Source of the DNA: an uncultured Saprospiraceae bacterium
GTDB taxonomy: Bacteria > Bacteroidota > Bacteroidia > Chitinophagales > Saprospiraceae
Direction of reading: 5' to 3'
NCBI GenBank assembly: GCA_937921595.1
Contig: CAKZTD010000016.1
Span: 1-40,236 of the forward strand
Length of the DNA: 40,236 nt
In this document: positions 5,774-39,150 of the stretch, piece after piece
How positions within the stretch are numbered: position 1 is the first letter of the stretch
How the letters are laid out: every line of letters starts with the position of its first letter
Position numbers and translations under genes: made by a program
The notes under the pieces: generated by a model
What the model saw: the letters and a program-made list of their open reading frames with translations, nothing else
Told to the model about the DNA's origin: nothing
Database searches by the model: none

Positions 5774-5880
5774 AAAAAAAAGGAGGTGAGAAATCATAAC
5801 GAACCGCTCAACTTTCTACCCTTGCTGCGTTTCCACCCTGGGGGAGTTCAAAAGGAGCTAGTCATATGACCCTCACCAGC
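5774..5880 (-). ncRNA. ffs: Signal recognition particle RNA (small bacterial type)
   Basis: On the minus strand the 5' arm GGTGAGGGTCATA pairs with the 3' arm TATGATTTCTCACC, closing a rod of about 95 nt. The apical part reads CCCCCAGGGTGGAAACGCAG followed by CAAGGGTA: a GGAA tetraloop and the AGCA internal-loop strand bound by the Ffh M domain. A run of eight T follows the 3' arm (5781-5774). A full promoter lies just upstream. SRP RNA with Ffh targets membrane and secreted proteins to the Sec translocon. The 5' end is placed at about 5880-5876 from the promoter distance; exact ends are estimates. Confidence 0.9.
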
Positions 5881-5882
5881 TG

Positions 5883-5914
5883 CAAAAGTAATTTGATTTT
5901 GTGAAAAAACAAGG
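5883..5914 (-). promoter_or_regulatory. Promoter of the SRP RNA gene
   Basis: On the minus strand TTG (5912-5910), 19 nt, then TACTTTTG (5890-5883). This fits the Bacteroidota primary sigma consensus TTG, 17-23 nt, TAnnTTTG. Transcription would start about 4-7 nt later, at the base of the RNA's terminal stem. Confidence 0.8.
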
Positions 5915-18060: not shown

Positions 18061-18567
18061 ATGAAACGACTATTAACTATAATCACGATACTTGCGGCCC
18101 TTGGGTTGGCTGGTTATTACTTTTTTCAAAAAAATGGTGGCGTAAAGGATATAGAATTTGTAAAATTGGAGAAAATTAAAATCAATAAAGTAGTCCCTTT
18201 CCCTAAATTACTTTTACTTACAGAAGCCAAGGCCGTTTTAAAAAATCCAAACCCTTTTGGAGGAGAAATCACTTCATTGGACTTTGATGTATATGTTGAA
18301 GGTAAACATACAACAACTGTACATCAACCCGTTAGTATTCAAATGCCCGCAGATACGGAATTCAAACTCCCTATTAATTTTGAAATCCCTTTGGGAAAAT
18401 CCGGATTTTTCAAAGATGCAAAAGATATCATAACAGGAGCTTGGAAGAATAAAAAATTGAATATCCAAACAGTAGGTGAAATAACGATTAAGGTTTTGAA
18501 TTTTGAGTTTCAGATTCCTTTTGATGAGGAAGAGGGGTATTTGCTGAAGGATTATTTACCGGAATAG
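18061..18567 (+). CDS. LEA type 2 (water-stress/hypersensitive) family protein
   Basis: This 168-residue protein has an N-terminal hydrophobic anchor (residues 3-21) and then a beta-sandwich LEA14-like/WHy domain: KLLLLTEAKAVLKNPNPFGGEITSLDFDVYV with the characteristic NPNPF, and LPINFEIPLGK. Such proteins face the envelope and are linked to desiccation or stress in other organisms; here the function is only inferred. Its stop codon TAG (18565-18567) is part of the first unit of a hairpin repeat array, so its C-terminus (YLPE) appears to be set by the repeat. It is transcribed divergently from ccmB. Confidence 0.8.
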   Translation: MKRLLTIITILAALGLAGYYFFQKNGGVKDIEFVKLEKIKINKVVPFPKLLLLTEAKAVLKNPNPFGGEITSLDFDVYVEGKHTTTVHQPVSIQMPADTEFKLPINFEIPLGKSGFFKDAKDIITGAWKNKKLNIQTVGEITIKVLNFEFQIPFDEEEGYLLKDYLPE

Positions 18568-18668
18568 ATTCTCCCTGCGGTCGAATAGGGATAGATCACC
18601 TACGGTGATAGGAATAGATTCCGATAAATCGGAATAGGGATAGATCGTTCTGCGAACGATAGTGATAA
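18559..18668 (+). repeat. Hairpin repeat array A (GATAGAT type), four units
   Basis: Units start GGAATAGAT (18561), GGGATAGAT (18588), GGAATAGAT (18611) and GGGATAGAT (18637). Inside the last three are perfect stems: ATCACC-TAC-GGTGAT, ATTCCGAT-AA-ATCGGAAT and ATCGTTC-TGC-GAACGAT; the first stem is imperfect. Each unit closes with ATAG. It ends ATAGTGATAA. Stems differ between units but stay paired. Related heptamers GGAGTGA follow at 18682-18703. Confidence 0.85.
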
Positions 18669-18781
18669 GGGGTAGAGGCGACGGAGTGAGGAGTGAGGAG
18701 TGGAATTAATAAAAACTTAAAATAAATACTTAGATCAAATCTTTTATAATTAACTAACGTTTCAATCTTTTATGGCCTAAA

Positions 18782-22270: not shown

Positions 22271-22372
22271 CAAGTTAACAAAGGAACAAAAGAAAAAGTT
22301 AGCAATGAGGCGAACCACCATTGCTAACTTTTTCGTTTGCTAACTTATTCCTTTCTTGACTTGTTAACTTGA
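22271..22372. terminator. Large bidirectional hairpin/octamer repeat between convergent genes
   Basis: The inner arm AAAAAGTTAGCAATG pairs with CATTGCTAACTTTTT (22294-22334), giving A- and T-tracts on both sides, so it can terminate both genes. The outer arm CAAGTTAACA pairs with TGTTAACTTG at the two ends of the gap. The minus strand reads in octamers: CAAGTTAA, CAAGTCAA, GAAAGGAA, TAAGTTAG, CAAACGAA, AAAGTTAG. Confidence 0.85.
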
Positions 22373-23253: not shown

Positions 23254-23547
23254 ATGAAAATAGACAAAGTGCTAATATCGAAGTTGGAAAAACTATCTAG
23301 ATTGGAGTTGTCTGAGCAAGAGCGAGATGGTATTCAGAAGGATTTAAATGAAATTCTTTCTATGGTTGAGAAACTAAACGAAGTGAATACGGATAATGTG
23401 GAGCCTCTGATTCATATTTCTGAAGAGGAGCATGTGCTCAGAGAGGATGAAATTAAGCATCAGCTTTCACGTGAGGAGGCTTTGAAAAATGCACCGAAGC
23501 AGAAGGATGGGTATTTTTTGGTACCTAAGGTGATTGAGAAAGGATAG
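23254..23547 (+). CDS. gatC: Asp-tRNA(Asn)/Glu-tRNA(Gln) amidotransferase subunit C
   Basis: GatC stabilises the GatCAB complex that converts Glu-tRNA(Gln) or Asp-tRNA(Asn) to the amidated form during translation. The 97 residues match: ISKLEKLSRLELSEQER, a coiled helical segment IQKDLNEILSMVEKLNEVNT, then VEPLIHISEEEHVLREDE and the tail EEALKNAPKQKDGYFLVPKV. gatA and gatB are elsewhere. The TAG stop codon (23545-23547) is part of a hairpin repeat unit, giving a Gly-stop end (VIEKG). Confidence 0.95.
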   Translation: MKIDKVLISKLEKLSRLELSEQERDGIQKDLNEILSMVEKLNEVNTDNVEPLIHISEEEHVLREDEIKHQLSREEALKNAPKQKDGYFLVPKVIEKG

Positions 23548-23652
23548 ATCACCTACGGTGATAGGGATAGATCATCTACGACGATAGTGAATGATTCAAA
23601 CTCGCTATGCTTGTTTGAAGGGATAGATTGCCTGCGGCAATAGTGATAAAAG
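23541..23652 (+). repeat. Hairpin repeat array B (GATAGAT type), three units plus a longer hairpin
   Basis: GGATAGAT units start at 23542, 23564 and 23620. Stems are ATCACC-TAC-GGTGAT (identical to array A unit 2), ATC-x-TC-TAC-GA-x-GAT and ATTGCC-TGC-GGCAAT. Between units 2 and 3, ATTCAAAC and GTTTGAA flank an 11-nt loop holding TCGCTATGC. It ends ATAGTGATAA like array A. It starts on the gatC stop codon. Confidence 0.85.
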
Positions 23653-39057: not shown

Positions 39058-39150
39058 CACTATTGCCGTAGGCAATCTATCCCTCACCACTCAATCACTA
39101 TTCTCCAGAAGGAAAATCTATCCTTACCACCGCAGGTGGTCTATCCCTGA
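39058..39150 (-). repeat. Hairpin repeat array C (GATAGAT type), three units
   Basis: On the minus strand: GGGATAGA with CCACC-TGC-GGTGG, GGATAGAT with an imperfect ATT-x-TCC/GGA-x-AAT stem, and GGGATAGAT with ATTGCC-TAC-GGCAAT. ATAGTG closes the second and third units. The first unit supplies the stop codon of the RluD-like gene (39143-39141). Confidence 0.85.

Follow-up and report, generated by a model that had tools for sequence, protein, structure and literature searches.

Results

Genes and hairpin arrays in the window

Three genes stand directly upstream of arrays of small hairpins in the window, by which we mean the whole stretch of 40,236 nucleotides analysed here, from an uncultured Saprospiraceae bacterium (Table 1). 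Pfam assigns their products to LEA_2 (26.2 bits, just above the cut-off of 25.4), to GatC, and to PseudoU_synth_2 with S4; for the last of these, the RluD-like protein, the best-scoring named relative of 14 comes from a Saprospiraceae MAG. The TAG stops and C-termini that a preliminary description of this DNA had given for the three genes were confirmed. It had also placed every stop in a GG(G/A)ATAG border of the first repeat unit, which is exact for the LEA and RluD-like genes, but gatC reads AGGATAG, which leaves two of the three with the complete border.

Table 1. Genes, stop codons and hairpin arrays at the three loci (window coordinates).
Feature	Position	Strand	Description
LEA_2-type gene	18061-18567	+	stop TAG 18565-18567 within GGAATAG; C-terminus Glu-stop
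gatC	23254-23547	+	stop TAG 23545-23547 within AGGATAG (6/7 border positions); C-terminus Gly-stop
RluD-like gene, stop TAG	39143-39141	-	within GGGATAG 39147-39141; C-terminus Gly-stop
Array 1	18568..18660	+	four hairpins, 8-nt linkers AGGGATAG/AGGAATAG
Array 1 hairpins	18568-18586 (imperfect); 18595-18609; 18618-18635; 18644-18660	+	
Array 2	23548..23641	+	four hairpins behind gatC
Array 2 hairpins	23548-23562; 23571-23585 (imperfect); 23595-23619 (long, imperfect); 23627-23641	+	
Array 3	39060..39140	-	hairpins 39140-39126, 39117-39100, 39076-39062

The predicted fold of array 1 forms the last three of its four hairpins, that of array 2 the first and the last of four with other pairings between them, and that of array 3 the first two of three. 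Since these whole-array folds are barely better than those of shuffled sequences (z -1.0 to -1.2), no claim is built on them. Above the gathering score Rfam matched none of the arrays, and its sole match in the window is a small SRP RNA at 5780-5885 on the minus strand (RF04183). A 16-bp tandem repeat of 2.1 copies lies at 22321-22354. Heptamers of the GTGAGGA type trail some arrays and are seen at 18683-18703 of the window and in the tails of the arrays at L081 and L088.

Anatomy of the repeat unit

Each array consists of small hairpins that follow one another in a single orientation; the stems vary yet are self-complementary, and the linkers are constant and poor in C (AGGGATAG; AGTGATGAGGGATAG), with 1 C in 355 bases. 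The linker preceding a hairpin is either AGGGATAG or AGGAATAG (8 nt), or else AGTGATGAGGGATAG (15 nt). Among 52 spacers measured, 33 were of 8 nt, five of 15 nt, one of 16 nt and 13 of 31-49 nt, and the last may hold an undetected hairpin. The palindrome conserved within a family, as expected of REPs, was not found: the 135 units detected by pairing comprise 90 different hairpins.

Pairing was assessed in 58 units of 15 nt that had been picked by their flanks only. Watson-Crick pairs occupy the six stem positions in 56, 54, 51, 47, 57 and 45 of these units (56, 55, 54, 50, 57 and 52 with G-T allowed), and they drop to 0-30 of 58 when the frame is slid by 1-2 bases. At least two types of pair occur at stem positions 3-5, and the exchanges seen in the stems include T-A/C-G and G-C/A-T. 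For 118 hairpins in clusters, picked by their own pairing with no condition on the 5' side, we counted the tag at the foot, earlier searches having demanded ATAG. Directly 5' of these hairpins stands TAG in 104 cases, ATAG in 97 and GTAG in 5, in clusters that had been found via ATAG motifs, so that arrays with GTAG only would be missed. In common with REPs in general, the repeat is short and palindromic, has many copies and is mostly extragenic; 52 of the 154 motif clusters, single matches counted, fall within called genes.

Placement of the arrays

The genome to which the window belongs comprises 8.04 Mb in 465 contigs. It was sampled as 71 regions around motif matches and 9 further contigs picked without matches, with genes called by our own script, and because the regions were fetched for holding motif matches the rates below apply to the sample. 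One pattern search of the genome gave 102 matches, and the positions used are among the matches listed. The motif set for clusters is loose, with 35 matches in 0.67 Mb of G002, a genome of the same genus without these arrays, and a two-match rule was therefore applied. Filters differ between the counts: the first count held 77 clusters (64 with an upstream gene on the same strand), the placement count 75 clusters with called neighbours on both sides and a score above 10, and the stop-codon counts 63 sense clusters, with one misassigned gene (L090, 879 nt away).

In these regions 61 of the 75 intergenic clusters lie in sense behind a gene, 31 of them between codirectional genes and 30 behind one of two convergent genes, while 8 are antisense and 6 divergent. 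The list of arrays made for the sample bears out a tie to stop codons for the majority, but not for 14 of the 75. For the distance to the stop, clusters were formed without regard to genes; an earlier test was biased because it took genes with a motif no more than 150 nt past their stop. The first motif follows the stop at a median of 18 nt in codirectional (n=31) and 24.5 nt in convergent (n=30) settings, the corresponding distances to the gene that follows being 105 nt and 140.5 nt (p=2e-6 and 9e-6), and it is closer to the stop than to the next gene in 30/31 and 27/30 clusters, respectively.

The 14 antisense and divergent clusters have median distances to the upstream neighbour of 128.5 nt (8 antisense) and 234 nt (6 divergent), and showed no significant lean toward either neighbour and no stop proximity. 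Examples are found at L079 12334, L086 8839 and 4041, L050 9442 and 7526, and L107 18569; as judged by eye, several of the first hairpins in such arrays have no preceding TAG.

Stop codons at the arrays

The genes in front of the 63 sense arrays end in TAG (38), TAA (14) or TGA (11), and the share of TAG is far above that in other called genes (203/833, p=8e-9). The stop lies inside GGRATAG at 11 of the 63 arrays and at 7 of the 833 other genes (Fisher p=2e-9, odds ratio 25). The preliminary description had held the common register of the three window arrays to be unlikely by chance. The tendency behind it is indeed far above chance but is not a rule, and "three of three" is a lucky draw out of a real tendency.

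Of the 38 TAG arrays, 19 have the canonical start of a hairpin (AT[TC] or ACC) directly after the stop, compared with 16 among the 203 remaining TAG genes (p=5e-9), and in about a third of the sense arrays the unit's TAG doubles as the stop of the gene. Seven sense arrays have the border at most 15 nt after the stop, three have TAA or TGA before an AT(T/C) start, and 34 open with another leader sequence, in many cases a T-rich/A-rich hairpin at or near the next base; before these 34, too, TAG is raised (16/34, p=0.005). The GGRA part is missing in 27 of the 38 TAG arrays, which indicates that the border is not usually brought in as a whole. A motif search found array sequence coding the last residues in 4 of the 63 genes (L062, L070, L083 and L097), to which L100 was added by eye as a fifth.

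A survey of 7-mers in the 3' flanks gave only A/T-rich words at the top. The first 32 nt after the stop have a mean predicted energy of -6.1 in the 63 array genes and -1.9 in 445 others, and pairing of -4 kcal/mol or better from at most 3 nt after the stop occurs in 27/63 and 30/445, respectively, the choice of genes being biased in both comparisons.

Comparison with array-free relatives

Orthologues of the three window genes in four genomes of the same genus (G001-G004), where that of the LEA gene was found in two, are without arrays and end in TAA or TGA in 10/10 cases. The comparison of orthologue stops took in part of the loci (RluD 15/30, gatC 13/23, LEA 7/10), and among more distant relatives TAG occurs in gatC of G018, G015, G007 and G090, in RluD of G006 and in LEA of G007.

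Eight array genes could be compared with G002, and seven of them, LEA and gatC included, end within one residue of the orthologous protein, as do 60 of 80 controls; the RluD-like protein is 22 residues longer here. With gaps measured between alignment ends, the gap here minus that in G002 has a median of +115.5 nt at 6 array pairs and -1 nt at 59 others. With native ends in seven of eight and longer gaps at array pairs, the most plausible reading is that arrays were added where the genes natively end, RluD and the few array-coded C-termini being exceptions. Replacement of the native 3' end by insertion, as the preliminary description had proposed, is not supported as a general rule.

The G002 orthologues of seven TAG-array genes stop with TAA (4), TGA (2) and TAG (1), so that TAG is kept in 1/7, against 7/17 control TAG genes (one further row, which ran off its contig, left out), numbers too few for significance. 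The one case is the L053 array gene ending in -GRK. L053 gene 4 was counted as an array gene on a single motif match, its array being plain by eye, while L075, with TAA in both genomes and unlike tails, was excluded for low coverage. Native ends inherited with their TAG had been named as a finding that would weaken the capture idea; the ends agree within one residue in 7/8, but the same-genus orthologues of the window genes have TAA or TGA throughout. Judged from these sequences, TAG at array genes would seem not plainly inherited, but stop codons vary a lot at this distance.

The motif ATAGGGATAGAT has 84 matches in this genome and 0-5 in each of 147 relatives, 83 of which hold at least one; a control with the reversed pattern gave 0-7 matches each. 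The strict motif (ATAGGGATAGAT with ATAG at unit distance) was found 38 times here and in none of 246 other genomes sampled from the class. A phage origin was considered and rejected, the three matches in viral_contigs all being of one shared stretch type that has one motif but no succession of units.

Array-free G002 has a stop-adjacent repeat of its own at L224 (G002:C9), where much of the gap that separates the convergent stops of the L053 gene 4 and gene 5 orthologues is taken up by ACGAAAT-type heptamers. In G007 (L157), TGTTGATG-like repeats stand directly behind the TAG stop of gatC. Simple repeats next to stops may be a recurrent feature of this family.

Discussion

Our data suggest that the arrays are probably a lineage-specific, REP-like family of short hairpins, added directly 3' of native stops and in sense with the gene. 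This draws on what was observed: the build of the units, their bias in orientation and their anchoring at stops, the enrichment of TAG, the native protein ends and the lack of the repeat in the relatives searched. The unit would consist of a constant linker ending in GGGATAG and a variable self-complementary stem, with TAG at the hairpin foot. Where the first canonical unit abuts the stop, three bases would serve at once as the TAG of the unit and as the stop of the gene. The stop mostly sits at its native position and shares its identity (TAG) with the repeat. In the transcript a string of small hairpins would stand right behind the terminating ribosome. We infer that the array, if it acts at all, affects decay at the mRNA 3' end and ribosomes close to the stop, as E. 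coli REPs are reported to do, and that it may have spread through copying of single-stranded hairpin units. The mostly ATAG tag, the weak folds and the 14 of 75 arrays away from stops count against this interpretation, as does the fact that no mobilising enzyme tied to the arrays was found, the two Y1_Tnp genes being free of the motif in the 3.2-3.3 kb analysed around each.

The closest known system appears in PMC3733652, the available text of which describes GTAG REPs as lying close to 3' ends, with termini that often supply the TAG stop codon; to the extent of that text, the TAG-stop observation has already been described for REPs. The likeness there extends to small hairpins (stems mostly of 6-9 bp in GTAG REPs), complementary stem changes within families, some grouped or tandem copies, and a position mostly between codirectional or convergent genes and near the 3' end of the upstream ORF (PMC3733652, same text). 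However, the tag of GTAG REPs (GTAG, or GYAG, GYRG, GTRG, GTMG, at the hairpin foot) is not typical of the 118 hairpins here, of which 97 have ATAG and 5 GTAG. The arrays also differ in running one way, with 8- or 15-nt linkers and stems varying widely inside one array. No array motif was found at the two Y1_Tnp genes, L191 (3342 bases) and L205 (3243 bases), that might have linked the repeat to a RAYT. At L205 1100-2000 the RAYT-like Y1_Tnp gene lies beside other hairpins (GCAAGTTT/AAACTTGC and CTCCGAC/GTCGGAG), possibly of another repeat family. The alternating orientation of BIMEs was not seen either, arrays on both strands, with clusters built strand by strand, being limited to 5/26 convergent and 3/35 codirectional array regions. 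The ATAG repeat looks REP-like; it departs from GTAG REPs in its tag, in flanking neither of the two Y1_Tnp genes at the loci analysed, and in forming mosaic arrays that run one way.

Integron attC sites also sit behind stop codons. Ribosome stalling by E. coli REPs near stops was reportedly the subject of a study by Liang et al. 2015. According to the accessible part of PMC12306157 (its ref. 17), ribosomes can be stalled by E. coli REPs that lie no more than 15 nt from a stop, and these, too, place a hairpin close behind the stop in the transcript, whereas the arrays here consist of unlike units. TAACTGA heptamer repeats of Beggiatoaceae, Cyanobacteria and some Bacteroidetes, as presented in the available text of PMC4679880, share a patchy distribution and contain stop codons, some overlapping the stop of a gene, but they are direct repeats of a simple kind, found for the most part shortly before a start codon. 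Literature searches confined to open-licence papers turned up no description of the ATAG hairpin-array repeat.

The preliminary description had suggested that arrays are seeded at, or captured by, a TAG stop. Anchoring at stops and enrichment of TAG agree with it, but 25 of the 63 sense arrays follow TAA or TGA. In its explicit form, a single-strand (HUH-type) process would insert units 3' of TAG, the TAG at the unit end would re-create the target and so give one-way arrays, and stops would be the tolerated sense TAGs. We consider this unlikely, although TAG is enriched also before other leaders and precedes 104 of 118 hairpins that were picked without regard to it. From base composition, other intergenic TAGs would be expected as frequent targets, yet only 14 of 75 arrays are off stops; the low share of TAG in G002 at array genes (1/7 vs 7/17, too few for significance) points the same way, and no array-linked transposase was found at the loci around the two Y1_Tnp genes.

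It is very doubtful that units inserted at or just upstream of the native stop carried the GGRATAG border with them and so supplied a new stop, sometimes with new C-terminal residues. Such import would account for the excess of GGRATAG stops (11/63 vs 7/833), for the five genes with array-coded last residues (four from the motif search, L100 by eye) and for the longer RluD-like protein, but not for the protein ends that agree within one residue in 7/8 or for the TAG arrays lacking GGRA (27/38), and insertion in random frame upstream of stops should give more array-coded tails.

Very unlikely, too, is pure tolerance, by which units land anywhere and survive best behind stops, sparing coding sequence and the upstream signals of the next gene. 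Convergent regions are the richest in arrays (26/141, compared with 35/584 codirectional and 5/144 divergent, regions having been chosen for holding arrays), as tolerance would have it, but the bias to sense in codirectional array regions (27 with arrays in sense alone, 5 in antisense alone, 3 with both) and the enrichment of TAG are left unexplained. That the arrays are intrinsic transcription terminators is extremely improbable in spite of their hairpins at gene 3' ends, as a hairpin with a T-run is not enriched (4/60 array regions vs 41/445 others) and in G002 the genes that flank two of the window arrays here are separated by ~45 and ~90 nt (346 nt at the third).

Returning to the addition of REP-like hairpins at native stops, the preference for the sense strand and for TAG is compatible alike with target choice, with later conversion of the stop to TAG and with border import in some cases. 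It is tempting, if quite unlikely, to think of a repeat targeted to stops via the transcript or the termination site, growing unit by unit in sense and pulling the stop to TAG. An array-bearing genome with a syntenic array-free relative offers a case within a single lineage for testing why REP-like hairpins collect behind stops, mostly in sense, and suits equally the question whether stops at arrays are drawn to TAG. If targeting were true, the spread of the repeat would be linked to transcription or translation termination.
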